Part shown: positions 6,217-34,053 of the stretch, one piece after another
Layout of the letters: every line of letters starts with the position of its first letter
How positions within the stretch are numbered: the stretch's first letter is position 1
From: Candidatus Raymondbacteria bacterium RIFOXYA2_FULL_49_16
GTDB taxonomy: Bacteria; Fibrobacterota; OXYB2-FULL-49-7; XYB2-FULL-49-35
Reading direction: 5' to 3'
NCBI GenBank assembly: GCA_001789205.1
Contig: MFYT01000037.1
Location: 1-55,022, forward strand
Length of the DNA: 55,022 bases
Made by a program: the position numbers and the translations under genes
The notes under the pieces: model-generated
The model's database searches: none
What the model saw: only the letters and a program-made list of their open reading frames with translations
Told to the model about the DNA's origin: nothing

Positions 6217-7899
6217 CTACTTTAATAATGTTACAGCTTTGGTTAAAATCCTTTTACCCGCTTTTACTTTTACAATGTACAGGCCGCTCCGCAGGCTTCC
6301 GGCATCCCAAACAAAGACATTTTGATTGCTTAATGGCTCAAGTGACTCGATAAACTTCCCTGTGACATCATAGATGCTTACCGTTAAATTAACGGCGGGA
6401 TCCCGCCCCTGGATTGTTACCGTCGTTTTCGGGTTAAACGGGTTGGGGCTGACCAATATCTCTAATGACTTATTTCCTATCGCACCACCCTGTTCGGCAA
6501 TTGTTGGTCCAGCGCCTATGTTTCCGGCAAAGGTCGTGATGCTTCGGCTCGGCAAAACATAGGAAAAGGAATTCCCCGTAACCGCGATTGCGCCCAAATC
6601 AACGCCGCGTTCATTGGTCGAGGTGCGAACCGCGTTCAGGCTGGACAGACCGTCAAGGTTGGCAATTGAAAAATTAGCCGTTTTGTTCGAAGTCGCGGGG
6701 TTAATGGCGACGATGGTGAAGACGCTTTCCAAGGGATGCTTGTAGGCGGAGACCTTCACGTCGTTCGTGTCGCTTGATATCGCCTCTATCCGGATTGCCC
6801 CGGGCCTGACCCAGTGCGCGAATTGCCTGAAGGCATACCCGTCCTTGGTGATTCCATTTGACGAAAATCTGCAAACGCCGCCGGGACAGGGCCAGTTTTT
6901 TGAATAGATTAGCCCCTTAATTACGCCAGTGCTGCCGGTCTCTATTCCGAGCAACATCTGCCACATAGTCGCATTGCCGATGGTCAGCGCGTCATGTATC
7001 CATCCCGCCATGACCAAACCCGCTGAATCAGCAGGCTTATTGCCGCAGCAGTGAGAGACTTCCGGGACCCAGATACTGGTAATATTATATTGCCTCGCAA
7101 GGTTGGCGAGCGCTTGCCAGTATTGAGGAGTCGTCTTGCCCAATTCAGTTCCATAGCCATTGGCCGCCAGCCCGTCAACCCATCTTCGAGCCGCCGTATC
7201 CGCTAAAATAAGATTGGCGTAATTAACTGAATTCTGGACATTCCAGCTAAGGCCGACATATATCTTTATGTTTGGTTTGGCGGCCTTGATAATTGGAGCG
7301 GCGACCTTAAGGTAGGCAAGATAGCTCGAAAAATCCATACTTAAGCGGTTGTAGGGGCCGGTGGAATCACAAGGCTCGTTAAGGTCGGGTTCAGCAAAAG
7401 GTGTATACACATTAAAGGTCATGCCCGTGCTATCTTCCCAAATATTAATCATATCAATCGTGAAATACGCGAAATCATCATAAAATTCAGGCAGCAATTT
7501 GCCGCCCTGTATATACGGACAATCTTTCAATTCCGGTTTAGGACGGGCGAGTCCGCCCAAAAGCGTTTGCCCATACCTTTTCGCCCACCTGTAAGTCGTC
7601 CAAATCTCCTCTGAGTAAAATGGCGACAGGTAACTCCCTAAACCAGTATCCGATGCGGCCCCTGTTCTCACGAAACTGACGCCAATATCATTAAAGAATA
7701 TATCCCAAAAAGCAGTGTCATTCGCATAGCCGGATCCATTAACGGATGAGTCGTGGCTTTCCATCTGGCAGCCAAAGCCCTGAATGGTCTGGTATTCCGT
7801 GGCGCCGTTTATGGCGACTGTGGCGGCCTGCGACATGGAAAATCCAAGCATAAAAATGACCGTTTGCACGCAGATTAATGTCAGCGACTTGACTTGCAT
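6217..7899 (-). CDS. Divergent GH30-like secreted glycosidase with sorting tail
   Basis: 560 residues with signal peptide (cleavage near 'SMSQAA') and a GGGAGG ribosome site. The start 'VAINGATEYQTIQGFGC' and the closing beta-sandwich ('FRQFAHWVRPGAIRI', 'VVAINPATSNKTANF') match the GH30 paralogues in this locus. The catalytic positions differ: the acid/base lies in 'TPFAEPDLNEP' (Glu170) where GH30 normally has Asn-Glu-Pro, and the nucleophile is probably Glu280 in 'IWVPEVSHCCG'. The barrel also has unusual insertions. The tail runs from 'SPNPFNPKT' to 'SGLYIVKVKAG' and LLK. Likely an extracellular hemicellulase; specificity may differ from true GH30. It could be a separate clan GH-A family. 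Confidence 0.72.
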   Translation of the reverse strand: MQVKSLTLICVQTVIFMLGFSMSQAATVAINGATEYQTIQGFGCQMESHDSSVNGSGYANDTAFWDIFFNDIGVSFVRTGAASDTGLGSYLSPFYSEEIWTTYRWAKRYGQTLLGGLARPKPELKDCPYIQGGKLLPEFYDDFAYFTIDMINIWEDSTGMTFNVYTPFAEPDLNEPCDSTGPYNRLSMDFSSYLAYLKVAAPIIKAAKPNIKIYVGLSWNVQNSVNYANLILADTAARRWVDGLAANGYGTELGKTTPQYWQALANLARQYNITSIWVPEVSHCCGNKPADSAGLVMAGWIHDALTIGNATMWQMLLGIETGSTGVIKGLIYSKNWPCPGGVCRFSSNGITKDGYAFRQFAHWVRPGAIRIEAISSDTNDVKVSAYKHPLESVFTIVAINPATSNKTANFSIANLDGLSSLNAVRTSTNERGVDLGAIAVTGNSFSYVLPSRSITTFAGNIGAGPTIAEQGGAIGNKSLEILVSPNPFNPKTTVTIQGRDPAVNLTVSIYDVTGKFIESLEPLSNQNVFVWDAGSLRSGLYIVKVKAGKRILTKAVTLLK

Positions 7900-7957: not shown

Positions 7958-10774
7958 CTATTTCATCATTATCACCTTTCCCGTGACGACTTGCCTGCCC
8001 GCGGTCAAACGTACCACGAAGATTTGGCTCGACAAAGGCCGTCCATTGCAGTCCCGGCCGTCCCATGTCAACCGGCATACCCCTTGCCCGGAACTCTTAG
8101 GAGAGAGTTCCTTGATCAAAACGCCGCGCAAATCGTAGATACGGAGTTTCACGGCGGATGAAGGCAAAAGGCCTTGCCGACCGGCCGAAAAGGCGAAGTT
8201 CACCACAGGATTGAAAGGACTGGGATAAGCGGTGAGAAAAGGCGCTATGTCTTCCTTGTCCGCGCTGAATTGCGAGGAGACCACAATATGCGTTGTGTCG
8301 TTTTCCATGATAATCAGCACGTCGGCGCTTCTGTCGGGAACAAGGGCCGCTCCGCCCGTAGGATTGCTGAGTGTCAGGTTAACCGTCTCGTCGCCTTCGT
8401 AAACCGCATCGTCCAGGGTCGACACCGTGAAGGTCTTGCTCACCGTGTCCCCATCGGCCCATGAAAGCGTCCCGGAGACCGCAGTGTAGTCCGATCCTGC
8501 TGTGGCAGTGCCATTGCCCGTTGCGTAATTCACGGAAACAGCCCCGACACTGCCACCCACCCGCTGCACCGCTATCGTCACCGGGCTGAGGTTTGGTTGA
8601 AAGGAACCGCCGCTTTCCATAACACGGTAGCGGCCATCGTAATATACCGGCGCGCCAAACAGCAACGCCCCTGCTGGAGGGGCCGGATCATTGTCCACCA
8701 TAGTAATCATTGGTCCTGGATAGACACTACCCAGCCTGGCCCCCCCTGTTGGGTTGCTGATGGCCAGGGTCACGGTCTCTTCGCCCTCGTAGACAGCATC
8801 GTCCAGGACCGGCACTGTAAAGGTCTTGTTCGCCGTGTCCCCGTCTGCCCAGGAAAGCGTTCCAGAGACCGCCGTGTAGTCAGAACCAGCTGTCGCCGTC
8901 CTGTCGATTGTCCTGTAGTCCACAGAAACCGCCCCGGCGCTGCCGTCGCTCCGTTTCACCGAGACAGTGGCTGTCCCGGAGTTCTCGTTCACGCTGAAAT
9001 TCGCCGCGCTGTACTGCAATACCCCGGCCCTCTCCACAATCGTCAGCACTGCCTCGCTTGGCGTACCCGGCGTTGCACCACCTGTGGGGCTGCTCAGTGT
9101 CAGGTTGATGGTCTCGTTACCTTCGCAGATTGCATCGTTCAGGATCGAAACAGCGAACGTCTTGTTTGTCACGTCCCCATCGGCCCAGTTCAATGTCCCG
9201 GAGACCGCTGTATAGTCAGAACCAGCCGTGGCTGTTCCGTTGCTCGTTGTAAAGTTCACCGAAACAGCGCCGCTCGAACCGCCAGTCCGTGTCACCGCGA
9301 TTATCAGCGGGTTTGTGCCATACGCCCCATTCTCAAACGAGCTCCAATCCGCAGAGGTGAACTGCAACGCGCCCTTCTGGGTCCCCATAGCTCCGGTGAA
9401 AGTGGTGATGCTGTATGCCGGAAGAACACCGCTGAAACTGCCCGCGGACACTGCGACCTGCCCCGCGTCAACGCAATTCTCAGTGGAGGAAGTCCGGTAC
9501 ATTGAGAGGCCTGCAACGCTCCCGGGCAGGTTGCTCAAAGAGCAATTGATGGTTTTAGCTGCCGCTGCATCGCGGTTGATCACGACTACCGTAAAGGTAC
9601 CCTGCCCCTCGTGCTTGAAAGCCGTGACCAGTACATTGCTGTCGCTGCTTGCAGCGTCAACCCGCACGGCCCCAGGCCGGATCCAGCGGAAATACTGCTT
9701 TATCGTGTAGAACTTGGGGGTTGGCCCGGTTGCGCTGATGAGAGCCAGGGCCTTTTGAGATGGGTCCCTGTAAAGCTCATACACGTGCCATGCAGAGACC
9801 CCGCCGTAGACAAGCGCAGTATGGAGGTGTTGGGCCAGTGGCAGCGCTTCCGTCCATGTGCCGGTGCTGCTGCCGTCGTTGCAGTACTCGGTCAGCCAGA
9901 GCTTCTTGCCGTGTGTGGCTGCCAGGCTTGCTGCCGTCTGCCAGGCTGGAATGCTGGCATCAGGGTTCCAGAAGTCCTGGGTGTAGCAGTGTGTGGCAAG
10001 GCGGTCTATGTAGTTTTTTGCCACAGGATCTTGCAGTATCCTGTCAACGTACGAGCCCGGTCTCATACTGTTGAGACTGGTCGGCTCAGATGCGAAAATC
10101 TTCGTGGCAACCCCTTCTGCCTGAAATCGCGTTCCCAACCGCTTGGTCATATCCGCGAGCCTGTCCGACGGGTAGTAGAGCCACGAGCCGTTGGTCCAAG
10201 TGACCTCGGGCTCGTTGTGGATGGTGGCGTAGTCGAAATGCACCCCGTGGTATAATTCCATGCCTTTTATCCAGATCATTATGTATTCAATCAACTCCTG
10301 CTCATAGCCGGGCCTGAGTATTCCCTTGCCGGGTGTCTCCTCCTCATATACATTGGTCGTCATCCACACAGGCACGGAATGGTTGGTTGTGATCAGCTTG
10401 ACACCGCGGCTCTGAGCGGCCTTAAGAAGAGGCGCCGCCGCGTCAAAGAAAAAGGTCCTGACATTGCCCCAATTGATGACGAATGGATCGGTGTTGTCAT
10501 TCTCAACGACCTCATTGCCGTTGGTTTCGTTACCGCCATGTTCCACGTTGGGCAGCATCCTGAATCTCAGCTGGCTCACTCCAAGTTCATCGAATATCTT
10601 GGAGCGCATGGCCTCATCGGGCGGGTATATCCAACCCTCATCTCCGCCCAGCGCTTCGATGGCCTGATATTCTGTGGCACCGTTTATGTTAACATTGGCG
10701 GCTTGAGTGGCGGAAAGACACGACAGCAAGACAACCGTTTGTATAATTACGATGATCCCTGATTTGCACTGCAT
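7958..10774 (-). CDS. GH30 glycosidase with three Calx-beta domains and sorting tail
   Basis: 938 residues, GGAGG site 7 bases before the ATG, signal peptide ending near 'SATQAA'. The GH30 module covers about residues 25-460: 'INGATEYQAIEALGG', acid/base Glu188 in 'TIHNEPEV', nucleophile Glu296 in 'LWLTEYC', and the beta-sandwich with 'IRPGAVRV' and 'LPAYSITTFTG'. Three Calx-beta domains follow at about 467-575, 582-690 and 700-820, each with 'GTATAGSDYTAVSGTL' or close variants and 'WADGD'. The tail ('YPSPFNPVV', 'IYDLRGVLIKEL', final MMK) closes the protein. Calx-beta domains serve as calcium-binding spacers on cell-surface proteins. GH30 enzymes cleave xylan or beta-glucan; which one cannot be decided here. 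Confidence 0.85.
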   Translation of the reverse strand: MQCKSGIIVIIQTVVLLSCLSATQAANVNINGATEYQAIEALGGDEGWIYPPDEAMRSKIFDELGVSQLRFRMLPNVEHGGNETNGNEVVENDNTDPFVINWGNVRTFFFDAAAPLLKAAQSRGVKLITTNHSVPVWMTTNVYEEETPGKGILRPGYEQELIEYIMIWIKGMELYHGVHFDYATIHNEPEVTWTNGSWLYYPSDRLADMTKRLGTRFQAEGVATKIFASEPTSLNSMRPGSYVDRILQDPVAKNYIDRLATHCYTQDFWNPDASIPAWQTAASLAATHGKKLWLTEYCNDGSSTGTWTEALPLAQHLHTALVYGGVSAWHVYELYRDPSQKALALISATGPTPKFYTIKQYFRWIRPGAVRVDAASSDSNVLVTAFKHEGQGTFTVVVINRDAAAAKTINCSLSNLPGSVAGLSMYRTSSTENCVDAGQVAVSAGSFSGVLPAYSITTFTGAMGTQKGALQFTSADWSSFENGAYGTNPLIIAVTRTGGSSGAVSVNFTTSNGTATAGSDYTAVSGTLNWADGDVTNKTFAVSILNDAICEGNETINLTLSSPTGGATPGTPSEAVLTIVERAGVLQYSAANFSVNENSGTATVSVKRSDGSAGAVSVDYRTIDRTATAGSDYTAVSGTLSWADGDTANKTFTVPVLDDAVYEGEETVTLAISNPTGGARLGSVYPGPMITMVDNDPAPPAGALLFGAPVYYDGRYRVMESGGSFQPNLSPVTIAVQRVGGSVGAVSVNYATGNGTATAGSDYTAVSGTLSWADGDTVSKTFTVSTLDDAVYEGDETVNLTLSNPTGGAALVPDRSADVLIIMENDTTHIVVSSQFSADKEDIAPFLTAYPSPFNPVVNFAFSAGRQGLLPSSAVKLRIYDLRGVLIKELSPKSSGQGVCRLTWDGRDCNGRPLSSQIFVVRLTAGRQVVTGKVIMMK
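8452..9242 (-). repeat. Three tandem Calx-beta coding repeats
   Basis: The most conserved cores lie at about 8452-8519, 8843-8907 and 9178-9242, each encoding 'WADGD' on one side and the TATAGSDYTAVSG motif on the other. They repeat every ~335-390 bases and are similar enough at DNA level to recombine, so domain number may vary between strains. Confidence 0.75.
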
Positions 10775-12334: not shown

Positions 12335-12630
12335 TTATTTCAACAAGGTAATCTTTCGGGCCATGATTTTATCGCCTGCTATTATTTTAACAATATATAG
12401 ACCTGTCTGCCAACTACTGGCGTCCCAGATATAGCGTATTGCGCCTGCCGTGTTCTGCCCGTCTCTACCCGGTCGATCCGAGGAGTGCGTACCGTAGCAG
12501 GGCGCAAGCGTATTTACCAGCGCTCCCTTTATATCATAGATATTTACCGCTAAATGACCCGCTGATCCCTGACTCCTGACCTCTATTATAGTTTTAGGGT
12601 TGAATGGATTGGGGCTGACAATTATTTCAA
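12335..12630 (-). repeat. C-terminal tail cassette shared with 26950-27245
   Basis: The 3' end of this GH30 gene matches the 3' end of the unrelated propeller gene at 26950 along about 290 bases. Shared blocks include 'atagcgtattgcgcctg', 'ggtcgatccgagg' and 'ccctttatatcataga'. The upstream coding parts are not related, so the tail was copied as a DNA unit. Confidence 0.75.
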
Positions 12631-14053
12631 TGGGATTATCTTTTTTTCTGCCCATCTCATTAGTTGTCGTCCCTATGGTCCCGGTAAGGGTCGTGATGCT
12701 CGAATCGGGCAATGTGTAAGAAAAGGAATTGCCGGTCACGGATATCTGCCCTAAATTCACGGCGTTTTCCGTGGCTGAAGAGCGGATGGCATTAAGACTT
12801 GAGAGCCCTTGAATATTGTTCACGGTGAAGTTGACGTTCTGATTGGAACCGCCCCTGTTGATGTTCACGATGGCGATGGTCTTGCTGTCCTTTTGCACAA
12901 AGGAAGTGACGAGGATATTGCCGTTGTCGGTCGCTGCCTGTATCCGCACCGCGCCTGGCCGGACATATCTGAAGTAGTGTTTTACCCAATAAAATTGTTC
13001 CCTGGGACCGTTTTCATTAACCAATCCCCCATATCCATCGCCGAAACTTGTCGGGTGATACAGATCCATATATAACCATGCACTGACTTTGCCATAGTAC
13101 AGGCCGTTGTGCATATGCTGGACATATAATAAGCCGTCTTTCCAGGATGTGTTGCCTGCGCCCCATTCGTTCTGCCAGAGTTTCAGGTTGTACTGGCCGG
13201 CTATATCGGCCACATTTGTCCATGCGGTAATGGCGCCGTCCGGGTTGGAAAATGTAACGTTATATGGATGCGTGGCCAATACGCCCACATACTGCCGGGC
13301 TATGGGATCCTGCAAAGTCGGGTTTGCCAATCCGGCAAAACTGCCTAAACTTACGCATTCAGGCAGAATAATCTTTGCGGTGATTCCCTTGGTTTGAAAA
13401 TACGGCCCCACCACCTTGATTAAATCACGCAGTTCAGCCCCTGTATATGTGCATCCTGTCCAAGTAGGGTTGTGCCCGCCGTTCGGCTCATTCTGAAGTC
13501 CGATATAGGAGAGCGTCACCCCTTTCCTGTCCTTTAACCCCTTATACCATATATACAGAAATTCGGCGAATTCGTCATAATTCTGCGCTAAAAGCTTTCC
13601 GTCCCTGTAAAACAATCCGGCAGGTGAACGCATCCAGCTTGGCGGTGAACACACTTTTCCCGCAAATATATTGCACCCATGGGCCTGCGCCTTAACAGGC
13701 AGCACCCTCCCAATCATATCAATCCATGACGTATCCACCCCGTTCCAGTCAATAATATCCGGGTCGTCGTTGTCATTCCTTGATGCGTCTCCCAATCCTG
13801 TATCGTTATATACTGTGTCCTCGGTCTGGGTATAAAGGCCCATGTCGAGTATGCTTGCGCCCAGTTCATTAAATATAAGATTGAAATCATTGTCAGTTTT
13901 TGGAAACAATTGCACTTCATTCCCGCCAAAACCGTCAATTTCCTGATATTCTATGGCACCGTCTATGGTCACGCTTGCGGCTTGCAATGTGGTGAAACCA
14001 AGTAAAAGAATAAGCATTTGTATGCCGGTTAAAATCATTGAAATTAATCTCAT
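12335..14053 (-). CDS. GH30 glycosidase with sorting tail
   Basis: 572 residues from the ATG at 14053, preferred over upstream codons of the same frame because GGAGCAGG precedes it and the signal peptide (MRLISMILTGIQMLILLLGF) begins there; 14077 is an alternative. GH30 features: 'EYQEIDGFGGNE', acid/base near residue 189 in 'GLQNEPNGG', nucleophile near 296 in 'LWQNEWGAG', and the beta-sandwich ('FRYVRPGAVRI', 'LPDSSITTLTG'). The nucleophile context QNEW differs from the TEY/TEV of the other paralogues. The tail contains an unusual insert 'SDRPGRDGQNTAGAIRY' shared with the gene at 26950. Likely extracellular hemicellulase. Confidence 0.85.
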   Translation of the reverse strand: MRLISMILTGIQMLILLLGFTTLQAASVTIDGAIEYQEIDGFGGNEVQLFPKTDNDFNLIFNELGASILDMGLYTQTEDTVYNDTGLGDASRNDNDDPDIIDWNGVDTSWIDMIGRVLPVKAQAHGCNIFAGKVCSPPSWMRSPAGLFYRDGKLLAQNYDEFAEFLYIWYKGLKDRKGVTLSYIGLQNEPNGGHNPTWTGCTYTGAELRDLIKVVGPYFQTKGITAKIILPECVSLGSFAGLANPTLQDPIARQYVGVLATHPYNVTFSNPDGAITAWTNVADIAGQYNLKLWQNEWGAGNTSWKDGLLYVQHMHNGLYYGKVSAWLYMDLYHPTSFGDGYGGLVNENGPREQFYWVKHYFRYVRPGAVRIQAATDNGNILVTSFVQKDSKTIAIVNINRGGSNQNVNFTVNNIQGLSSLNAIRSSATENAVNLGQISVTGNSFSYTLPDSSITTLTGTIGTTTNEMGRKKDNPIEIIVSPNPFNPKTIIEVRSQGSAGHLAVNIYDIKGALVNTLAPCYGTHSSDRPGRDGQNTAGAIRYIWDASSWQTGLYIVKIIAGDKIMARKITLLK

Positions 14054-14307
14054 GATACCTGCTCCGGGGTTGTTCATTCCGATCCCCCATTTTTGGATTA
14101 AAATAACATTCCATAAACCTCTAAAAAACGTACGGCGTTGCATGCTTAACCATCATAAATATCAGCCACTTATGTGGTGTCGTAGCAGATTGCATGATCA
14201 CCAGTTTTCTCTCTTATCAATAAATATTATAAAATAAAAGAAAAATGGCTTGAAATAAACGGAGAAATTGTTAAAAAAAAAGGGGTTTTCTTAGTATTTA
14301 AAGGACA
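14054..14307. other. Intergenic region between the GH30 gene and the AraC-type sensor
   Basis: About 250 AT-rich bases downstream of the sensor gene and upstream of the GH30 gene, both on the minus strand. Several long A/T runs occur but no clear hairpin terminator. It is the widest gap inside the enzyme block after the left-edge one and probably carries a promoter for the genes to its left; no specific -35/-10 pair can be defended. Confidence 0.4.
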
Positions 14308-15861
14308 TTACTTCGGCAAATTGTGTTTTCTATATTCGGACGGGGTTGTTCCCACGCTGCTTTTGAATACCCTGTTGAAATTTTCCAGTGTGCCGTATCC
14401 CACCTCAAAGGCTATTTCCGAGACCCGTTTATTGGTGTTTTTAAGCAATTCCTGGGCTTTTTCCATGCGGATTTTATTCAAATAATTTGAGAATTTATCG
14501 CCAGCCTGCCTTACAAACAATTTTCTCAAGTAATCCGGACTCAAGTTAACGTTAGAGGCCGCTTTTGTCAAATCAAGGGTTTCGTCATGAAAGTTCTGTC
14601 TTAAATATTCTTTTACCGTATTTATTAAGGATTCATGCATGGAAACTTCAGCGGCGTCCCTAATGGCATTCAACCTTTTTTTTCTGCGGATAATGTATGC
14701 CGAGTAAGAAAGAACCGCAAGAGCAAGGGCGCAGCAAAAAACCAACACGGAATAATTATTCCTGTCAACAAGGCGCAGATTGCCCCATTCGCTGGGATTC
14801 TGGAGGACCAAATCGGAAATATTGGCCCAGCTTTTTGTCATGACAACACCAAACTTATTTTCCCTGTCAGTGTTAACAAGGTTAAATCCGATTGTTATGC
14901 CGTGTTTGGGTTTCAGACCGAATTCTTTCCAGGGGAAAGCGGCTTCAACATCATATCCCGCGCTTGTTTTTTTAATCCGGGTTTTAGGGTTCCAGATCAA
15001 GCCGGCGGCTTTTATGGTGGTGTCGCGTTTAAAATCAAAAATGGCCGTTTCGGTTTTTCCGCCAAGGCGGCTTTCTTTTGAATATTCCGGCCGGGTACTT
15101 CTCCTAAAATCAAAAACAGCCATTTCGGTTGTCCCGTTCGCCGGAACCATGATCTGGTAATCGTCCGTATCCCTGATCGAACCATGACCGTGATTTATAT
15201 CAAAATAGAATTCTATTTCATCCTGCATATAGGGACGGATATCTTGAAATTGCGTATCATTCTCCGCCGGGAAAATGTCCGCATCCGTCACTCTTACTGC
15301 AAAATAGAGAAAAGTCTTGTCCCATTTTGACGCCGCAATTATCCGGTTGTCGTTATTAATAAAAACAATGGAGTCTTGGGCAAACCACTCCTCAAGATTT
15401 CCATCAATCTTTATTGGTTCATCCGTCTTATAGGTAATCCATTCCATTCCGGAAAGTTCCTTGTTCCTGTCCAGGGCCGCTTTTGCCGCGAAATTAGCAA
15501 AACCTCCTTTTAGTTCATTCTTGGATGTTACATAATGACAAAAAAATCCTAAATTAAAGTTGTCTTGATCGGGAATCTTGGAACAGTCCCATATTGCCTC
15601 AAAAGGCGGCACGGAGTCAATGTCAATAATCGCGTCCTCAATCGAATGCTTCATTTTATTGCTCGAAAGAATGGAGTAAAAAACAAAAAAGCGGACCCAT
15701 TTTATTGTGTCGCCTTCTATTATACCGGGAACCGCGATTTTAACCAGGTTGTCGCTGATGACAGCGTTATTTCTGGGCATAATAAACCCAGAGGACAGCT
15801 CTTTTGGCAAGGAATGCACGGCAAAAGCAAATAAAGCGGCGGACAGATAAAGGCTTTTCAT
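14308..15861 (-). CDS. Membrane-spanning regulator: periplasmic CBM9-like domain, TM helix, AraC DNA-binding domain
   Basis: 517 residues in one chain. An N-terminal signal segment (MKSLYLSAALFAFAVHS) is followed by a periplasmic region; residues ~140-363 resemble the family 9 carbohydrate-binding/DOMON-like fold ('KIDGNLEEWF', 'WDKTFLYFAVRVTDADIF', 'MQDEIEFYFDINHG', 'AAFPWKEFG'). A single membrane helix spans ~370-391 and ends in basic 'RRKKR'. The C-terminal ~105 residues are a two-helix-turn-helix AraC domain ('TLDLTKAASNVNLSPDYLRKLF', 'VSEIAFEVGYGTLENFNRVFK', 'TPSEYR'). The layout implies a one-component receptor binding sugars or glycan fragments outside the inner membrane and controlling transcription directly. 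It lies inside the enzyme block and is the best candidate for its inducer-responsive activator. No kinase or receiver domain is present. The start lacks a clear ribosome site. Confidence 0.85.
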   Translation of the reverse strand: MKSLYLSAALFAFAVHSLPKELSSGFIMPRNNAVISDNLVKIAVPGIIEGDTIKWVRFFVFYSILSSNKMKHSIEDAIIDIDSVPPFEAIWDCSKIPDQDNFNLGFFCHYVTSKNELKGGFANFAAKAALDRNKELSGMEWITYKTDEPIKIDGNLEEWFAQDSIVFINNDNRIIAASKWDKTFLYFAVRVTDADIFPAENDTQFQDIRPYMQDEIEFYFDINHGHGSIRDTDDYQIMVPANGTTEMAVFDFRRSTRPEYSKESRLGGKTETAIFDFKRDTTIKAAGLIWNPKTRIKKTSAGYDVEAAFPWKEFGLKPKHGITIGFNLVNTDRENKFGVVMTKSWANISDLVLQNPSEWGNLRLVDRNNYSVLVFCCALALAVLSYSAYIIRRKKRLNAIRDAAEVSMHESLINTVKEYLRQNFHDETLDLTKAASNVNLSPDYLRKLFVRQAGDKFSNYLNKIRMEKAQELLKNTNKRVSEIAFEVGYGTLENFNRVFKSSVGTTPSEYRKHNLPK

Positions 15862-16176: not shown

Positions 16177-16203
16177 ACACAGATTCCTGTAATGTGATAG
16201 CTT

Positions 16204-16314
16204 TCAATTTAATATATCCCTTTCAAGCAGAACGGTGTCTTTCACCTGAATAATGACAATGTCGCCTTCGTCCTTCACCACGATAGAAGGGTTGTTTTTA
16301 TCGGGTTCTGTCAT
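16204..16314 (-). CDS. 36-residue ORF, possible STAS-like N-terminal remnant
   Basis: ATG at 16314, stop at 16204-16206. The product begins MTEPDKNNPSIVVKDEG and continues 'DIVIIQVKDTVLLERDIL', which resembles the first beta strands of a STAS domain and then stops. There is no evident ribosome site. Because it lies 36 bases downstream of a complete STAS gene, a truncated duplicate is plausible, but a chance frame cannot be excluded. Confidence 0.3.
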   Translation of the reverse strand: MTEPDKNNPSIVVKDEGDIVIIQVKDTVLLERDILN

Positions 16315-16350
16315 TGGGCGCCGTTGCTGATGTCGCTGTTTGTGGTGTGG

Positions 16351-16722
16351 TCACAAACTTTTCCCTTTTGAATCTTCGCAATAATTTAAATATTCCGCTT
16401 CATGTTTGAATATTTCGAAAACGCCTTCAAGGCCGGTGGCTATAAGCACTTCGAGGACATCTTCTGCGGGTGCAATAATGGAAATGGTAACACCTGTTTC
16501 ATCTGCTTTCGCCAGTGCGGTTAAGAGTGCGGTGATGGCGCCACTATCAATATAATTGGTTGCCAGGAAGTCGATGCCAACATGTTTGATGTGAGGTTTT
16601 CCGCACGCATCAAGCAGAATCTTCAAAAATCTATCCGAATTAATATCCTTCACTATCTGCGGAGGCGTTTCAATAATTATGCGGGATTCCCCGACCCGGC
16701 ATATAAAAACCTGATCTGACAT
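16351..16722 (-). CDS. STAS-domain anti-sigma-factor-antagonist-like protein
   Basis: 123 residues forming one STAS domain: N-terminal strands 'IIIETPPQIVKDINSDRFL', then 'KHVGIDFLATNYIDSGAITALLTAL' with the Asp-Ser-Gly turn (Ser60) that is phosphorylated in SpoIIAA/RsbV-type antagonists, and a C-terminal 'AEDVLEVLIATGLEGVFEIF' segment. STAS antagonists bind a serine kinase/anti-sigma partner and switch partners on phosphorylation. No partner kinase or phosphatase is in the window, so it may act with a distant system. Neighbours are a phosphoesterase upstream and tiny ORFs plus the membrane regulator downstream on the same strand, suggesting a small regulatory insert within the enzyme locus. 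Confidence 0.8.
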   Translation of the reverse strand: MSDQVFICRVGESRIIIETPPQIVKDINSDRFLKILLDACGKPHIKHVGIDFLATNYIDSGAITALLTALAKADETGVTISIIAPAEDVLEVLIATGLEGVFEIFKHEAEYLNYCEDSKGKSL

Positions 16723-18383: not shown

Positions 18384-19970
18384 TTACCTGACTACCACCA
18401 TCTTTTTACCGGCGTATTTATTGTTCTGGAGCAAGCAAGCGAAATAAATCCCTGTCGCAACTTGCTTTTTGAAATCCCACAGCAGTTCCAGCTCCCCTGC
18501 TATTGCCGCGCCAGATCTGTGCGACCAGACTTTCCGTCCTTTCAAGTCGTAGACATTCATCGTAAACCCTGCATTTGACGCAAGCCGCAGGAAAAACAGG
18601 GCATCGCTGCCTGAGACAATGCAGTTGTTTATTGCCAGATTGCTCCCAGCGCCGGGCATTTGCCCCCTCTCCGTATTTGTGCTCGTCAAATAGATGATGA
18701 ACTGGTTCTGCTTGCCCTTTTCAAGGTGAACCGATGCCGTGCAACTAGTGCCGCCTTTAGTCGCAATCACTCTGTAGGTTCCGTAGAACCCTTTGAAATT
18801 CGCATCTCCCGACACACCCGAAAGAACCGTGGTATCGGTATGCCACACTGTTCTTATCAGCCTGCACAGGCTGTCGTATGCGGGTTTTGGCAAAAGGTGC
18901 GAATCGAGCAGGCCGCCGCCTCGCAGCCACGACATGCTGTCGCACAGGTCCCACCAGGTTATGGCCGTCACGGCCGGATGCGCGAAGCAGACGCGGTAGA
19001 AGTCGGCCGCGTATTTTGCCTGCACCTGCGGGTTCCACCTGGCGCCGCGCCAGGTGGCGCCCGAGAGCGGCGTATCAATGGATACCGGCGTGAATTCCGT
19101 GATATGCACCTCTTTGTGCAGTGAATCGTACCAGTCAAGCACCCCGCGCACATAGTCCAGGGGAAAGGCCCTGGTGCGAGGTTCGTGTGCCTGTATTCCC
19201 ACAGCGTCCCAAGGCACGCCTTGTTGCGATGCGGTATTGAGCATGTTCCACAGCGCAGGCCTCATGTTGTACATAACACTATAGTCATTCACGACAAGCT
19301 TTGCTGAAGAATCTGAAGTATGCGCCCAAACATGAGGTGAATCTATCGGTATAGATGAGAAGTGTGTTGGTTCGTTCACGACATCCCATATGGTGATTTT
19401 ATCTTTGTACCATGTAAGAAGCTCGTTTATCCGTTGCTTTTGTTCCAAGGCGGTCGGCAGACGCGAGCAGTTGGTATAACCTGGAAAGCCAGCGGCGGTT
19501 CCCCATAGAATCGGGTGGCCCTTGAGCTTGATGCCGCGGCTTGAGCACCAGGCAACGATCCTGTTGGTGGATGCTGTGTCCGGACTGCCCTGGGTCCTTT
19601 CGTATCCGCACCAGTATAACTTGGCCGTGGCGTAGTTGAAAAGGCTGTCGAACCGCTGTTTATATATGGCATTGCGTGCTGAGTCCGGGAAGTAGTTGAA
19701 CCCGTAAATGTTGCACCCGAAGAGAAAATCGTGTTCCTGCTGTTCCACTTGGATGGTTGTCCCATCCAAGGGGCCGCCGGAGCCGTTGAGCACTGTGATT
19801 GTCCCAATGCCTTTACGGTTCGTCTCGATTCTCATGGCTGACGCGGCAATCTCCGCCTGTTCCTCTGTCTGCCCCCCCTGCACCACCAATGCTGATGCCA
19901 TGACCGATACAGCCAAAAGAATTATCCTCATTCTCTTTTTGAACCTCATCAGAAAAAAGGACTTTTTCAT
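18384..19970 (-). CDS. GH10 endo-beta-1,4-xylanase with sorting tail
   Basis: 528 residues with N-terminal basic stretch and hydrophobic segment (IILLAVSVMASALVV). A small beta domain (~45-80, 'TITVLNGSGGPLDGTTIQVEQ') precedes the GH10 barrel. Diagnostic motifs: 'KLKGHPILWGTA' (~148), acid/base Glu200 in 'IWDVVNEPTHF', 'GIQAHEPR' (~258) and nucleophile Glu292 in 'VHITEFTPV', then 'ITWWDLCDSMSW'. GH10 enzymes cut xylan backbones. The C-terminal tail is a variant lacking the NPFNP turn ('NVYDLKGRKVWSH', 'TGIYFACLL', final VVR). It gives the strongest substrate clue for the locus: xylan or arabinoxylan. Confidence 0.9.
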   Translation of the reverse strand: MKKSFFLMRFKKRMRIILLAVSVMASALVVQGGQTEEQAEIAASAMRIETNRKGIGTITVLNGSGGPLDGTTIQVEQQEHDFLFGCNIYGFNYFPDSARNAIYKQRFDSLFNYATAKLYWCGYERTQGSPDTASTNRIVAWCSSRGIKLKGHPILWGTAAGFPGYTNCSRLPTALEQKQRINELLTWYKDKITIWDVVNEPTHFSSIPIDSPHVWAHTSDSSAKLVVNDYSVMYNMRPALWNMLNTASQQGVPWDAVGIQAHEPRTRAFPLDYVRGVLDWYDSLHKEVHITEFTPVSIDTPLSGATWRGARWNPQVQAKYAADFYRVCFAHPAVTAITWWDLCDSMSWLRGGGLLDSHLLPKPAYDSLCRLIRTVWHTDTTVLSGVSGDANFKGFYGTYRVIATKGGTSCTASVHLEKGKQNQFIIYLTSTNTERGQMPGAGSNLAINNCIVSGSDALFFLRLASNAGFTMNVYDLKGRKVWSHRSGAAIAGELELLWDFKKQVATGIYFACLLQNNKYAGKKMVVVR

Positions 19971-20286: not shown

Positions 20287-21936
20287 TTATTTTATTAACA
20301 ATACTTTTTTCTGTAAATTTTGTGTTCCGATGATGGCCTTTACTACATAGACTCCGCTTGGCAGGTTTGACGCATTCCAAGTATAACCTCGATACACCGC
20401 CCCGGCTACCTGGTTACCGCTGGTATATTCAGTTGTCAATTCTTCAAATAATACACCGCGAAGATTATAAATATTTACGGCCGGGCTGCCTGCTGATTGC
20501 TGATTGTTGATTGCTATTGCTATTGTGGTACTGGAATTAAAAGGATTTGGAGATACAAGTATCTCTATATTATCATTTTTTTTATATTCTGTTCTCTTTA
20601 TTTGTGTTGATCCTTTATGCCCGGTAAATGTTGTAACACTTTGGCCCGGTAAATCGTAGGTAAAAGAATTTCCACTTACAGAAACATTGCCTATATTCAA
20701 AGAACTATCGGTTTGCGATGTCCTGATTATATTTAAATTCAGAATCCCGGTAAGATTATTAATGGTAAAATTAGCCGTTTCACTATTCGTTTTCCTGTTA
20801 ATAGCAACAAAAGTTACGGTGTCATTCTGTTTATTGTTAAATCCTGTAACTAATATATCAGGGTCCCCTGACCGTACATCAATTCTTACGGCTCCAGGTC
20901 TGATATATTTAATGTATTGCTTTTGTGCATGATACCTATGAGTTGTAATTGCTCCAGGCATTATAATTTGCTCCATATTTGTGCTATAAAACTCCCAGGG
21001 GATATAGGCATTTATATCCGCGTGGGCAAGAGCGTTATGCATGTGCTGAGCCATATTAATAGCAATATCCCATCTGGTATTGTCTGAATTTGGTCTAGAG
21101 TACTCAGTCATCCATAATCTTTTATTATATGATTTAGCCAATGCTGATATGGGCTGCCAACCGGATATAAGCGAGTCTGGATCATTATAACTCTGCCCGT
21201 AGGAATGCGTACAGAGTATATCAACATAATTAGTGGTAACAGTGTCCTCACAGATAGGAGTAGCGCGGCTGCTGAATCCGCCCCACCATGCATTATCAGG
21301 CCCTATTAGTTTAGTAGTAATTCCTTCCGTTTCAAATCTGTTTCCGACAAGCTTTATTGCATCGTTAAGCTCACCTCCGTTATACCTGCAGCTCTCCCAG
21401 GTTTCTGTAACATCAGGCTCGTTTTGTATAGAGATGTAATCCATATAAATTCCGAGATTTTCTAAAGCTTTTATCCAAATAATTACATATTCAACAAATT
21501 CATCTTCATAGCCTGGCGTAACAGATCCTCCGTTTGTAAGTTGTCCGTTTGTCTTCATCCATGCGGGGGGACTCCAGATGGTTCCAAGTATTGGAATGTT
21601 CTTTGATTTAGCTTCCTGCAGTAATCCCAAGAAATCTCCTGATAAGGCACCGGTATTAATATTGTTCCAATCAATATCGTTCGGATTAGAATTATCATTT
21701 GAGGACTCCAGGGAAGGCATCATCCGAAATCTTAAAATACTTATCCCAAGATCGTCAAACAGGTAAGGCAGAATATTTGAAGGGGGATAATTCCAGGCTT
21801 CTGAAACACCAAAACCATCAATAACCTGGTATTCAATAAGGCCGTTTATTGTGACATTGGCGGCCTGGACATTTGTCAAAAATAGTACCACGATTATCGC
21901 CTGCATTACTACAACAATTCTTTTAATCTGTCTCAA
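20287..21936 (-). CDS. GH30 glycosidase with sorting tail
   Basis: 549 residues. The start codon is TTG, placed 6 bases after GGAGG. Signal peptide to about residue 25 ('LFLTNVQAA'). GH30 module: 'IEYQVIDGFGVSEAWNYP', 'ILRFRMMPSLE', 'IWSPPAWMKTNGQ', acid/base Glu173 in 'ISIQNEPDVTETWESC', 'THSYGQSYNDPDS', nucleophile Glu278 in 'LWMTEYSRP', and the sandwich 'IKYIRPGAVRIDV'. Tail: 'SPNPFNSSTT', 'IYNLRGVLFEEL', 'SGVYVVKAI', final LIK. The catalytic part is close to that of 25290 (long shared stretches), so the two are recent paralogues with different tails. Likely an extracellular xylanase or glucanase. Confidence 0.87.
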   Translation of the reverse strand: MRQIKRIVVVMQAIIVVLFLTNVQAANVTINGLIEYQVIDGFGVSEAWNYPPSNILPYLFDDLGISILRFRMMPSLESSNDNSNPNDIDWNNINTGALSGDFLGLLQEAKSKNIPILGTIWSPPAWMKTNGQLTNGGSVTPGYEDEFVEYVIIWIKALENLGIYMDYISIQNEPDVTETWESCRYNGGELNDAIKLVGNRFETEGITTKLIGPDNAWWGGFSSRATPICEDTVTTNYVDILCTHSYGQSYNDPDSLISGWQPISALAKSYNKRLWMTEYSRPNSDNTRWDIAINMAQHMHNALAHADINAYIPWEFYSTNMEQIIMPGAITTHRYHAQKQYIKYIRPGAVRIDVRSGDPDILVTGFNNKQNDTVTFVAINRKTNSETANFTINNLTGILNLNIIRTSQTDSSLNIGNVSVSGNSFTYDLPGQSVTTFTGHKGSTQIKRTEYKKNDNIEILVSPNPFNSSTTIAIAINNQQSAGSPAVNIYNLRGVLFEELTTEYTSGNQVAGAVYRGYTWNASNLPSGVYVVKAIIGTQNLQKKVLLIK

Positions 21937-21969: not shown

Positions 21970-23685
21970 CTATTCTACCTTTAATGCTTTTGTAGTAAGC
22001 GCCCTTCCGTTGCTTTCAAGCCTGATAATATAAATCCCGCTTCCAGAAGCCATGCCGCTCCGATCTGTCCCGTCCCACGAAAACGTATGAATCCCTTTGT
22101 TCACAGCGCCTTTAAACAAAGTCCTTATCACTGCGCCCCTCAAGTCATATACCTTCAGAGTAACAAAGGAATGTATGGGAATAGAATATCTTATCGTAGT
22201 TGCAGGGTTAAACGGATTGGGCGTGTTCTGAAACAGGAACAACGCTTTGCTGTTGGCCGCAGATATATCGAGTGCTCCCGTCCCTTCCTGACCAGTGAGA
22301 AACAGAACGCTGTTACCGGGGCATGCGATAGAAACACCTGTTCCGATATTTTCATCCAAAATGGAAGTAGCCACGGGAAATCCATTGCTATCTGTTATAG
22401 CAGAACTCGGTGAATAAAGATATTGGGAGAGGGAGGCATGGCCATGCCCTGGCACTTGAATGGTTAGTGTTTGCGTGGAGAAGAGACGATTGACGATACA
22501 GAATGTCCAGGAGGAAGTCCCTTGGGCTGAATCAGTATGATGCGCAGCGATCCCTCGTAAATCGGAGCGGCCGGTGTTGAGTTTATAGATTTTTGAACCT
22601 GTTTTAAAATTCCGACACAGCAGTGCCCATGGATAAAACCACTGCTTCAATCTGAATCCCAAAGTCTTGTTGCACCACATACCCCAAGTAAAATCCATAA
22701 AAGAATTGTCGTCCAGCATCCAGGCAGACACCGCACCGCTGCCAGCGCTTGCGCATTGGACTGCGTAGTCTGCCATGATAACACCATAATCGAATGTCTC
22801 AATATTGCTGTTTTGGCCAGTTGAGGCACCATCACTCAAACCCGCCTCACCAACGATAAGGAGCTTTCCTGCGGCCGCACTGTCATGCGTCTTTGCGTAG
22901 GTCCATAGGTTCCCGACATAGGTTTCCAGGGAACCGGAAAGGATATCAGCACCCGATGCATACCGGTGAAAATCATAAGCACCTAATATATTCAACTCCA
23001 CGGCCTGTGTATGCCAAGCAACATTGTTGCTCATGTCAGAACCAGCCAGCAATACTTTGTCCTGTAAACCACGAGTCACAAGCGCATTCTTAACATTGGA
23101 TACACCTGCCGCCCAGCGTGAAAACGAGCCGACTTCGTAATTGGGCTCGTTAACCAGGATGAAGTACCGTATACAGGTATAGCCCCTGACATTGATGAGA
23201 TGGTCAAGATAGTTGCCAATAACGGATGCGTATAGAGTGTCATCGGTGCTGACAATATCGCTACCTGGGGGAACGGTCCATCCCTGCTCCACACCCCAGT
23301 CTGCGAGCAGTACCGTGCTTCCCAAGGCCTGGCAAACATCTAAATGACGGTATAGTCGATACATATCCGCTGTTTCGTAGTCAAAAACGCCATTGTTATT
23401 ATAGCCGTATTTCAACAGCATCATGATTCGTGCTACAGGCAGACCCATGTATTCCACGCGCTTACGGATCAAGGCAAAATCAGAATCGGTAACCTCATAA
23501 GAACCATAGGAATAAGAATCCCATTCTGCTCCGAAGCCAAAAAAGCGATTGCAGGAGGGGTTAGCCGTATCGACAACAACGGATTGAGCAAACAGAAAAC
23601 CGTTCAGCAAGAAGACTGCCACCATAAAGTTTTTTTGAAGGTTTAGAGCCTCTTGCATAAACTCTGAAAATTTACTTCCTTTCAT
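21970..23685 (-). CDS. Clan GH-A secreted glycosidase (GH30/39/5-like) with sorting tail
   Basis: 571 residues; AAGGAAG precedes the ATG and a hydrophobic segment (NFMVAVFLLNGFLFAQ) lies about 20 residues in. The barrel is not closely related to the GH30 set: 'RFFGFGAEWDSYSYG', 'MGLPVARIMML', acid/base Glu180 in 'YFILVNEPNYEVGSF', nucleophile probably Glu280 in 'LLIVGEAGLSDG', followed by a beta-sandwich with 'SWTFCIVNRLFSTQTLTI'. The tail is standard ('NTPNPFNPATTI', 'KVYDLRGAVIRTLF', 'SGIYIIRLESNG') but the last residue is Glu, the only non-basic end in the window. The family cannot be fixed without a search. Confidence 0.72.
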   Translation of the reverse strand: MKGSKFSEFMQEALNLQKNFMVAVFLLNGFLFAQSVVVDTANPSCNRFFGFGAEWDSYSYGSYEVTDSDFALIRKRVEYMGLPVARIMMLLKYGYNNNGVFDYETADMYRLYRHLDVCQALGSTVLLADWGVEQGWTVPPGSDIVSTDDTLYASVIGNYLDHLINVRGYTCIRYFILVNEPNYEVGSFSRWAAGVSNVKNALVTRGLQDKVLLAGSDMSNNVAWHTQAVELNILGAYDFHRYASGADILSGSLETYVGNLWTYAKTHDSAAAGKLLIVGEAGLSDGASTGQNSNIETFDYGVIMADYAVQCASAGSGAVSAWMLDDNSFMDFTWGMWCNKTLGFRLKQWFYPWALLCRNFKTGSKIYKLNTGRSDLRGIAAHHTDSAQGTSSWTFCIVNRLFSTQTLTIQVPGHGHASLSQYLYSPSSAITDSNGFPVATSILDENIGTGVSIACPGNSVLFLTGQEGTGALDISAANSKALFLFQNTPNPFNPATTIRYSIPIHSFVTLKVYDLRGAVIRTLFKGAVNKGIHTFSWDGTDRSGMASGSGIYIIRLESNGRALTTKALKVE

Positions 23686-23718: not shown

Positions 23719-25263
23719 TCATTTCAATAAGGTTATTCTTTTTGTTTGAATCGTTTTATTTATTTTCACCTTAACAATAAATATGCCGCTTTGTCGGCTG
23801 CCGGCATCCCATGTATATCGCATTACGCCTCCTGAATTCTGAGTTATATAACAAGGCGTAAACGTTTTTACCATCTTTCCTTGGAGATCATAAATCCCCG
23901 CCACTACCGGAACACCTGATACCGGACTGCTAACCTCTATCACGGTCTTTGGGTTAAAAGGATTTGGATGCACGGATATTTCAATATTATTGTCTCTTTT
24001 TATGTCCATCCCTCTTATATGAGTGAGCGCCTGCCCCACGAGTGTCGCAACAGTGTTGGCCGGCAGGATGTATGAGAAGGATGAACCGGATACTGAAATG
24101 TCCGCCTGTTGGGCAAGGGAAAGCGAGTTGGATGTAATCCACGGGGTGACTGAATTCAAACCGAAGCCTGATAGAGTGAAATTCGCGGTTATAGCGCCGG
24201 CCCTGGATGGATTCACGGCAACTATGGCGACCGTCTCCCCGGCCGGATCTTTATAGGCGCTGACCAGGAGACTGCCCGTGCTCGTTACGCCTATGCGGCG
24301 GAATCCAGGACGGACAAACTTGCTGTAATTGCCAAGTATATACATTCGTTTCGTCGGACTGAAGTATGGGCCTGTGAGCGCCTGGTTGTTTGAACAATAA
24401 CTACCAGGACAAAACAGCCACCAGTAATGCCATGCGTTTACTTCAGCCAGTGTCAGGAAATTATGAATTCTTCTTACCCATACGATGGCGTCTGTCATGC
24501 TGCTGTCAAAAACGCCATAGACATCCGAGACCTCGGTTTCCCAGAGGTGCTTGCCATGGGTGTTTACAACAGCGGGCGTGCCAAAATCATAATTGTGCGC
24601 GGCAAGAATGTCTACCATGTTCGCGGTAGTCGGATCATTCATTGTTGTTGAATCCAGGTCAAACCGCCAATGGGAATCCTCGGGCATGAGTATTTTCGTG
24701 GAATCCAAACCCTTTGCAGCAAGAGCATTATAAAGGAATGGGATAAAATCATGCAGCTCCTGCGCAGACATCTCGCACGATTCCCATGTTGCCGCATAGT
24801 TCGGCTCGTTCTGGACGGAGATTGCGTAGATATTGACGCCCGCGGACTTCATGCTGTCCACATAGGCGGCCTGTTGATTGGCGTAATCCTGGTATCTGGA
24901 CGCAAGAAGATGCCCGCCGTTATTTACATCGTTGTTGGTTTTCCATGCCGCTGGCGGACTCCACGGCGCGCTCCAGACCCTGGCGCCGCGCGCTTGGGCC
25001 TTTTGCATTATCGAAAGCTCCGACGTGGTCGCGGGAATTGTAGGAGCTATGCGGTTGCGCAGAAGAGAAAGGCCGATTCCCTTGTCAACCGAGAAGAACA
25101 TGTCGGCCTGGCTGTCCGTGATGCCCGACCTCCAGGCAGTGCTGGCGCCAAAGCCGTCGATGACTTGATGCGTATCGTTCCAGTCAACCGTGACTTCCTC
25201 TGCGGCCACGACACAATTCCATGAAAAGATCAGCAAGACGCAAACAACAATGATTCGAACCAT
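23719..25263 (-). CDS. GH30 (glucuronoxylanase-like) glycosidase with sorting tail
   Basis: 514 residues, GGGAGGGG ribosome site, signal peptide to ~21. It is the shortest and most canonical GH30 here: 'VDWNDTHQVIDGFGASTAW', 'GIGLSLLRNRIAP', 'WSAPWSPPAAWKTN', acid/base Glu153 in 'ISVQNEPNYAATWESC', 'AAHNYDF', nucleophile Glu244 in 'LWETEVSDVYG', then the sandwich with 'FVRPGFRRIGV'. The motif spacing resembles bacterial GH30 glucuronoxylanases, which cut xylan next to methylglucuronic acid branches; the specificity loop was not verified. Tail: 'HPNPFNPKT', 'GIYDLQGKMVKTF', final LLK. Confidence 0.87.
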   Translation of the reverse strand: MVRIIVVCVLLIFSWNCVVAAEEVTVDWNDTHQVIDGFGASTAWRSGITDSQADMFFSVDKGIGLSLLRNRIAPTIPATTSELSIMQKAQARGARVWSAPWSPPAAWKTNNDVNNGGHLLASRYQDYANQQAAYVDSMKSAGVNIYAISVQNEPNYAATWESCEMSAQELHDFIPFLYNALAAKGLDSTKILMPEDSHWRFDLDSTTMNDPTTANMVDILAAHNYDFGTPAVVNTHGKHLWETEVSDVYGVFDSSMTDAIVWVRRIHNFLTLAEVNAWHYWWLFCPGSYCSNNQALTGPYFSPTKRMYILGNYSKFVRPGFRRIGVTSTGSLLVSAYKDPAGETVAIVAVNPSRAGAITANFTLSGFGLNSVTPWITSNSLSLAQQADISVSGSSFSYILPANTVATLVGQALTHIRGMDIKRDNNIEISVHPNPFNPKTVIEVSSPVSGVPVVAGIYDLQGKMVKTFTPCYITQNSGGVMRYTWDAGSRQSGIFIVKVKINKTIQTKRITLLK

Positions 25264-33158: not shown

Positions 33159-33213
33159 ATTCTATAATATAATGTTATTTATTATATTTCAAATGGGTGA
33201 AACAGGCATTTCA
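33159..33213. promoter_or_regulatory. Divergent promoter region between GH2 and AraC regulator
   Basis: 55 bases, strongly AT-rich, between two divergent starts. A TATAAT hexamer is at 33163-33168. The imperfect palindrome ATATTCTATAATAT lies next to the GH2 start codon. The compact spacing implies one operator could serve both genes. The exact promoters are not proven. Confidence 0.4.
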
Positions 33214-34053
33214 ATGAAGAATATACGCATGCGTGAAACCTCCTTTCGTTCTTCCGGAGAGGACAGGAATGCGGCTGTCTTTGATGTGTTTATTTCCGGC
33301 GTATCTTATTGTGATGGAACTTACTATATAAAAAGGAACAAGTCTGATGTTTGTGTCTTTGAATATATCAGGCAGGGGCAAGGCACTATTATTATTAATG
33401 GACAACAGTTTTTTCCGAAGCAGGGTGATGTATATATCCTCCATAAGGGCAGCGATCATGAATATTTCTCAGATAAAAAAAACCCATGGATAAAATACTG
33501 GTTCAACGTGAAGGGCGAGCTGGTTGAACAGCTTGTTTCAGTATACGGCCTGCAACACGTTTATCATATCGAGAATTGCCCGTTAAGGAAAACCTTTGAA
33601 AAAGGTCTGGCAATAGCCGGTAGAAAAGACATGGCCAGGCAGGAGATAAACGGCAAACTCTCGCTTGTGATTCATGAAATCATTATGAAAGCCGCAGCTC
33701 ATTGCCGGTCTGCGGAGCCCGAGCACTCGGAACCTGTCTTGCGCATGAAGTTGCTGCTTGAAGACCGCGTTGAAGGCAAGGTTACGATCAAAGACATCGC
33801 GGCTGCGGCGGGAAGATCTACCTCACAAGCCATACGGATATTTAAAAAAGAAATTGGATTTACGCCATATGATTTTTTTCTGCAGAAAAAAGTTGAAGCC
33901 GCAAAAATCTATCTGCTTCATACGGGAATGAGCATAAAGGAAATTGCCTTGAAGCTGCAATTCGCTGACGAATATTATTTCTCCAATTTTTTCAAGCAGA
34001 AGACCGGCATAGCGCCTTCGCAATATAAAATAGCTGGTGACCGCCCACTGTAA
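33214..34053 (+). CDS. AraC-family regulator with N-terminal cupin domain
   Basis: 280 residues from the ATG at 33214. Longer in-frame starts would overlap the GH2 gene and have no better ribosome site; 33193 is an alternative. The N-terminal half is an AraC-binding cupin ('VFEYIRQGQGTIIINGQQFF', 'GDVYILHKGSDHEYF', 'WIKYWFNVKG'). The C-terminal ~100 residues hold the two helix-turn-helix units ('VTIKDIAAAAGRSTSQAIRIFKK', 'MSIKEIALKLQFADEYYFSNFF', 'APSQYK'). Such cytoplasmic regulators sense a sugar and usually activate the adjacent catabolic gene, here GH2. Confidence 0.88.
   Translation: MKNIRMRETSFRSSGEDRNAAVFDVFISGVSYCDGTYYIKRNKSDVCVFEYIRQGQGTIIINGQQFFPKQGDVYILHKGSDHEYFSDKKNPWIKYWFNVKGELVEQLVSVYGLQHVYHIENCPLRKTFEKGLAIAGRKDMARQEINGKLSLVIHEIIMKAAAHCRSAEPEHSEPVLRMKLLLEDRVEGKVTIKDIAAAAGRSTSQAIRIFKKEIGFTPYDFFLQKKVEAAKIYLLHTGMSIKEIALKLQFADEYYFSNFFKQKTGIAPSQYKIAGDRPL

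Follow-up and report, generated by a model that had tools for sequence, protein, structure and literature searches.

Can a single polypeptide sense a glycan outside the inner membrane and change transcription inside it, without a kinase? The question is raised by a stretch of 55,022 nucleotides from Candidatus Raymondbacteria bacterium RIFOXYA2_FULL_49_16 (Fibrobacterota; contig MFYT01000037.1), here called the window, in which a gene for a predicted membrane-anchored AraC protein lies among glycosidase genes. By bringing together profile searches, structure prediction, phylogeny and gene neighbourhoods, we arrive at the probable reading that this protein is a kinase-free, one-component transmembrane regulator in which glycan binding outside activates the local glycosidase genes.

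A predicted sensor and DNA-binding domain in one chain

The reading frame at 14308-15861 (minus strand) begins with ATG and encodes 517 amino acids, with the following features.

14308-15861, minus strand: whole gene, with signal-like helix, Ig-like domain, CBM9-like domain, transmembrane (TM) helix and AraC domain (reading frame, Pfam, AlphaFold, Foldseek)
15805-15861, minus strand: N-terminal signal peptide or signal anchor, residues 1-19, MKSLYLSAALFAFAVHSLP (hydropathy; AlphaFold predicts a helix at 3-15)
15472-15783, minus strand: Ig-like, Big_7-like domain, residues 27-130, motif PPFEAIWDxxxIPDQD (AlphaFold beta strands)
14764-15444, minus strand: CBM9-like sensor domain, residues 140-366, Pfam part 180-366 (Pfam, profile search, Foldseek)
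14689-14745, minus strand: single TM helix, residues 373-391 (hydropathy)
14674-14688, minus strand: RRKKR directly after the TM helix (sequence)
14596-14754, minus strand: predicted continuous helix from the membrane to the AraC domain, residues 370-422 (AlphaFold, pLDDT about 81-95 along the helix)
14326-14559, minus strand: AraC-type DNA-binding domain, HTH_18, residues 435-512 (Pfam, Foldseek)

Pfam places CBM9_1 at residues 180-366, scoring 56.9 bits where the cut-off is 23.4 (E = 3.4e-15), and HTH_18 at residues 435-512, scoring 76.8 bits for a cut-off of 33.6 (E = 1.6e-21); HTH_AraC (45.4 bits, cut-off 26.6) falls inside the latter region. It finds nothing beyond the CBM9_1 and AraC domains, neither kinase nor receiver, in keeping with the preliminary description of the gene, and NCBIfam matches the AraC domain only partially. 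The AlphaFold model, built on a 21-sequence alignment (mean pLDDT 81.5), has beta sandwiches over residues 27-366, followed by the helix at 370-422 and the AraC DNA-binding domain. The best Foldseek match of the sensor is the CBM9 module of T. maritima xylanase 10A (1i82; E = 2.8e-12, TM-score 0.81 over the target), which a profile of the six paralogues in this genome also reaches by sequence (E = 2.6e-14), and the range of 130-365 proposed earlier for a CBM9/DOMON-like domain fits. The C terminus matches AraT (6swi, TM-score 0.85); with the profile threshold passed and its fold matching AraT and AraC domains, it belongs to the AraC/XylS DNA-binding family. The Ig-like region of the window protein has no Pfam match of its own, and a model of it alone, built without an alignment, was of low confidence (63) and matched no known fold significantly; Big_7 (PF17957) is found in 4 of the 21 aligned members, with a best E of 1e-4.

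The TM segment at 373-391 is strong (mean hydropathy 2.28). The 12 residues ahead of it carry a net charge of +1 and the 12 behind it one of +5, and hydropathy gives no further TM window in the mature part of the protein; the N-terminal h-region (residues 1-19) is of modest hydropathy. This predicted topology, one TM helix with positive charge following, bears out the earlier placement of the sensor in the periplasm, and hydropathy and the predicted helix at 370-422 agree with the claim that a single TM helix is joined directly to the AraC domain. We rejected two TM helices with a cytoplasmic sensor in view of the single TM segment of the mature part and the positive charge behind it, and a frameshift artefact or chimeric reading frame in view of 45 homologues that share the domain order. 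Export, one TM helix, a CBM9-like sensor outside, an AraC domain inside and the absence of a kinase are strongly predicted. By prediction, the protein has the layout of a transmembrane transcriptional regulator (TTR), in which outside sensor, TM anchor and DNA-binding domain form one chain.

One multi-copy and two single-copy clades

The window genome holds six paralogues; the window copy shares 25-32% identity with the other five. In an alignment of 21 members drawn from several genera, every one matches the CBM9_1 and the AraC Pfam families alike, with no kinase or receiver domain among the Pfam families found in them. Because of the six paralogues and these 21 double matches, the architecture is beyond chance. 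Full-length relatives occur in at least 25 of the 168 Fibrobacterota genomes searched, and in a single genus (genomes G311 and G398, 2-3 copies each) among about 220 genomes searched outside the phylum; some of the relatives lie on contigs JAEUSG01 and JADFYW01 of Fibrobacteres/Fibrobacteria metagenome-assembled genomes. A contig scan using motifs from the window genome alone returned no relatives, and a broader alignment did recover some. The Paenibacillus matches of this broadened scan were discarded, being CBM9 domains within large secreted proteins and so not regulators.

A maximum-likelihood tree of 45 proteins separates three clades. Clade B, which includes the window copy, is multi-copy and comprises 17 proteins (6 from the window genome, 6 from G001, 2 from G159 and 3 from G311; support 98/94), whereas clades A (8 proteins) and C (20 proteins) hold a single copy per genome, each with support of 100/100. 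The lineage of the window genome has gained its copies by duplication and divergence, and most of them lie in glycan-related loci. We infer that each paralogue may serve a different glycan locus, with a specificity of its own.

Clade C has a conserved setting of its own: in the five genomes inspected (L058, L059, L060, L063 and L064), mostly by eye and with families tested in L060 only, the sensor gene is accompanied by genes for a CxxCxxCC protein, a Wzi-like capsule protein and a sugar transferase; NifS/NadA-like genes are also seen by eye in clade C loci. Most of its sensors carry the motif HRxIRFGP and have lost the clamp loop. This regulator may watch a self-made surface glycan. Clade A members, where inspected, adjoin an HD-GAF response regulator or a histidine kinase. 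The expectation that the family would be associated with glycan loci elsewhere was therefore correct for clade B and not for the two single-copy clades.

Glycan-active neighbours of the sensor genes

In the window, the genes that bear on the function of the sensor are as follows.

6217-7899, minus strand: GH30-type enzyme (Pfam)
7958-10774, minus strand: GH30-type enzyme (Pfam)
12335-14143, minus strand: GH30-type glycosidase with a type IX secretion tail, a candidate target 164 bp downstream of the sensor gene (Pfam; intergenic sequence)
18384-19970, minus strand: GH10, the xylanase family (Pfam)
20287-21936, minus strand: GH30-type enzyme (Pfam)
21970-23685, minus strand: FlgD_ig protein within the GH30 gene run (Pfam)
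23719-25263, minus strand: GH30-type enzyme (Pfam)
25290-26936, minus strand: GH30-type enzyme (Pfam)
33139-34053, plus strand: second regulator, a cytoplasmic AraC protein with an AraC_binding (cupin-type ligand) domain (Pfam)

The gene had been described as sitting amid glycan enzymes, and GH30-type and GH10 genes do surround the window copy, as secreted glycan-active genes surround most clade B members. Near the other paralogues of the window genome are genes for a Sde182-type cellulose-binding protein, for beta-helix proteins that match chondroitinase B weakly, for an esterase, a GDSL lipase and DUF5060; the genes scanned around one of the six, C29, include none related to glycans. In G001, which belongs to the same order, a GH44 gene lies about 8 bp downstream of a sensor gene, a GH106 gene overlaps the end of a sensor gene, and a rhamnogalacturonan-lyase-like gene lies on the same strand as a sensor gene at a distance of 57 bp. 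The sensor may control these neighbours, yet the ordinary cytoplasmic AraC protein at 33139-34053 (+) shares the locus. No common DNA motif rose above shuffled controls in the intergenic regions of the locus, and promoter and terminator scans gave matches only modestly above shuffles. Type IX-tailed proteins are no commoner near sensor genes than near cytoplasmic AraC genes (150 scored of about 431 candidates); type IX-secreted proteins are so abundant in this genome that nearness to them is uninformative.

Several further observations concern these loci. The region 6217-28599 (-) combines at least six tandem GH30-type genes with GH10 and metallophosphoesterases, a strong local amplification of one enzyme type. 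Immediately upstream of the sensor gene lies a STAS-domain gene (16351-16722, -), and between the two a short frame at about 16200-16313 resembles a second STAS start, possibly a remnant (16177-16722, -). At 3860-5431 (-) the window encodes a secreted WD40-repeat and PKD protein with a type IX tail, whose WD40 part is very close to eukaryotic-type models. In G311, from another phylum, similar type IX-tailed FlgD_ig proteins lie directly downstream of two sensor copies (L171:164-1915 (-) and L172:6311-8059 (-)), and this pair is likely a conserved sensor target in that genus.

Half of the CBM9 clamp is kept in clade B

In the T. maritima CBM9 the sugar is clamped by Trp71 and Trp175, with Gln96 at the site, and in C. 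kristjanssonii CBM9.3 the clamp pair is Tyr89 and Trp191, with His114 at the site; CBM9.1, a natural CBM9 with leucine for the second tryptophan, bound none of the natural carbohydrates tested (PMC8280721). Aligned with T. maritima CBM9-2, the window protein has Y211 at clamp Trp71, Q236 at Gln96 and L353 at clamp Trp175, although loop gaps in the alignment of the clamp region make individual positions uncertain. The domain agrees with CBM9 by profile and fold and lacks the aromatic pair, with Y211 present and L353 in second place; because this second aromatic is absent, we call it CBM9-like rather than CBM9.

Across the family, the Trp71 position is W, Y or F in 10 of the 17 clade B members and in 0 of the 28 members of clades A and C, and the Gln96 position is Q, H or E in 15 of 17 clade B members. 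The aromatic at Trp175 has been lost in nearly the whole family, with paralogues C29 and C30 carrying tyrosine there. A site half kept in the clade of glycan loci and gone in A and C hints that clade B binds a sugar. For the window protein, with only one of the two CBM9 clamp aromatics retained, a sugar ligand is therefore no more than plausible. The more specific proposal of a xylo-oligosaccharide was a guess, given that only Y211 of the clamp remains and its partner is L353.

Membrane-bound AraC proteins across the genome

The window genome has 53 HTH_18 matches, and by hydropathy about 26 of the 47 distinct AraC frames examined carry a TM segment immediately ahead of the AraC domain. These include a second large set of membrane AraC proteins, with sensors of about 450-600 amino acids that have no Pfam match and that are probably further extracellular sensors. 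Its members (alignment A6; for example L098, L101, L104, L105, L110, L114, L116, L117 and L120) are about 600-700 amino acids long, with one TM segment and an AraC domain, and their large conserved periplasmic region, which matches no Pfam family, has the motifs FxxDFE near its start and NDTLxDSLFID. Separately, L080:1495-2490 (-) (contig C39, about 95 kb) encodes a protein of 332 amino acids made up of signal, sensor, TM segment and AraC domain. By eye its sensor resembles CBM6/35 (FIEAEtYnRi...), but neither PDB nor Pfam gave a sequence match. A further group of about ten soluble AraC proteins, paralogous to one another and 560-590 amino acids long (L112, L113, L122, L124 and others), shows weak PAS matches and a conserved middle without a Pfam match. 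The HTCS-type Y_Y_Y domain has no match above cut-off in the genome, SusD is absent from it, and it holds 10 TonB plugs.

A proposed mechanism and its alternatives

In the mechanism that we propose, the N-terminal signal would export the chain and one helix would anchor it in the inner membrane. Sequence, topology and fold predict that the Ig-like and CBM9-like domains are periplasmic and that the AraC domain sits on the cytoplasmic surface of the inner membrane. Secreted enzymes of the locus would release a glycan fragment that diffuses into the periplasm and is bound by the CBM9-like domain; binding would shift or pair chains, and the continuous helix would relay this change through the membrane to the AraC domain. 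The latter could then activate the adjacent glycosidase genes, and perhaps its own gene, without phosphorylation. In favour of this reading are the domains and fold, the single TM helix, the lack of a kinase, the six paralogues, the glycan-active neighbours of clade B with an aromatic at the Trp71 position in 10 of its 17 members, and the precedents of Saccharophagus degradans, TfoS and SusR. Against it stand the near family-wide loss of the Trp175 clamp, together with the failure of leucine-bearing CBM9.1 to bind any natural carbohydrate tested (PMC8280721), the setting of C29, the lack of a common DNA motif in the locus, the unspecific nearness of type IX proteins and the cytoplasmic AraC protein, which could itself be the regulator of the window locus.

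A second reading also fits the loss at Trp175: the protein would remain a kinase-free transmembrane AraC switch, but its CBM9-like domain would no longer bind free sugar and would read some other periplasmic signal. Such a signal could be the surface polysaccharide that the cell itself makes, or a partner protein carrying sugar, on the model put forward for ChiS with its chitin-binding protein. Clades A and C also lack the Trp71 aromatic, clade C with its HRxIRFGP motif adjoins a Wzi-like protein and a sugar transferase, and a genome with no SusD and 10 TonB plugs has no obvious importer of large oligosaccharides. Clade B, however, keeps an aromatic at Trp71 in most members and mostly Q, H or E at Gln96 amid glycan-active surroundings, and we regard this alternative as fairly unlikely.

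The locus itself could also mislead, with the sensor controlling distant genes, the local glycosidases expressed constitutively or under the cupin AraC protein at 33139-34053, and the position of the sensor incidental. Such a view gains from the sugar-type ligand domain of that second AraC protein, from the failure of type IX tails to single out sensor genes and from the abundance of membrane-bound AraC frames, about 26 of 47, which makes one in any locus not rare; the operon-like spacing of clade B sensors with GH44 and GH106 in a related genome, and the short distance of 164 bp from the window copy to the GH30 gene that follows it on its own strand, argue the other way and make it unlikely. 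Proteolytic release, by which a ligand-triggered cut near the membrane would free a soluble AraC fragment to reach DNA, occurs in some membrane-bound transcription factors. Nothing specific favours it here; the predicted helix enters the DNA-binding domain without a break, comparable membrane regulators that have been studied work without leaving the membrane (PMC11856585), and we consider it very improbable.

Relation to known systems

The principle of kinase-free glycan regulation by membrane AraC proteins is already known. In S. degradans 2-40, 16 of 31 AraC proteins are membrane-bound, several adjoin cellulase or xylanase genes, and polysaccharide sensing was proposed in 2008 (PMC2386152). 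That lineage-specific expansion, partly beside glycanases, and the sensing hypothesis resemble ours, whereas its glycanase-adjacent proteins have 2 or 6-7 predicted TM segments, a comparison made by description, as sensor folds were not given. TfoS of Vibrio cholerae and V. parahaemolyticus is a transmembrane AraC-family regulator that responds to chitin through an HTCS-like sensor (PMC7564644, PMC11856585). It shares with the window protein a periplasmic sensor, a TM anchor and an AraC DNA-binding domain in a single chain without a kinase of its own, and differs in governing competence and chitinase genes, aided by ChiS, and in its sensor, which is related to those of HTCS; in our family we found, outside the AraC domain, only the CBM9_1 match, plus Big_7 in some members. 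SusR of Bacteroides thetaiotaomicron likewise works without a kinase, switching on its glycan locus when maltose is bound on the periplasmic side; it is described as confined to Bacteroidetes, and its DNA-binding domain reportedly resembles that of no other known factor (PMC3878776); the output domain of the window protein is instead AraC.

The HTCS of Bacteroidetes likewise join a periplasmic oligosaccharide sensor and an AraC output in one chain in glycan loci, but the window protein has no histidine kinase, receiver or Y_Y_Y/Reg_prop sensor. With the xylanase CBM9 modules (T. maritima Xyn10A, 1i82; C. kristjanssonii CBM9.3, 7nwn) it shares the fold, an upper-clamp tyrosine as in CBM9.3 and a glutamine at the Gln96 position as in T. 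maritima, yet it lacks the second clamp tryptophan, has loop inserts and is fused to a regulator instead of an enzyme. As far as its anatomy shows, the window protein belongs with the transmembrane AraC regulators, built like TfoS and SusR, and is neither an HTCS, nor TfoS, nor a strict CBM9.

The view that a kinase-free glycan regulator is little described does not hold for the principle, given S. degradans in 2008 (PMC2386152) and TfoS (PMC7564644, PMC11856585), and stands for the CBM9-type sensor, which appears new, as do the six-fold expansion, the phylum-wide spread and the division between a glycan-locus clade and single-copy clades elsewhere. The open-access literature, with most subscription journals outside the search, gave no relevant paper on CBM9-AraC fusions or Fibrobacteres membrane AraC proteins, and the parts consulted of a 2024 review of hemicellulase regulation cover HTCS and ECF systems and do not mention a CBM9 sensor.

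On a wider scale, a Fibrobacterota lineage without SusD and HTCS may have built its glycan regulation on kinase-free membrane AraC switches (about 26 of 47 frames), one branch turning a CBM9 enzyme module into a receptor while single-copy relatives monitor the cell's own surface polysaccharide, so that foraging receptors would have arisen from, or share ancestry with, an envelope-sensing regulator. We offer this scenario tentatively and regard it as somewhat doubtful.

If the proposed regulator is real, one polypeptide would make transcription in the cell respond to a glycan bound beyond the inner membrane, and its ligand domain, continuous helix and DNA-binding domain would make a simple chain for studying how anchored AraC proteins switch. 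The six paralogues, lying beside different enzymes, would suggest themselves as a panel of glycan biosensors and could help to assign substrates to orphan loci of uncultured Fibrobacterota. The family also points to a way in which polysaccharide use may be regulated in a genome that has neither SusD nor HTCS.
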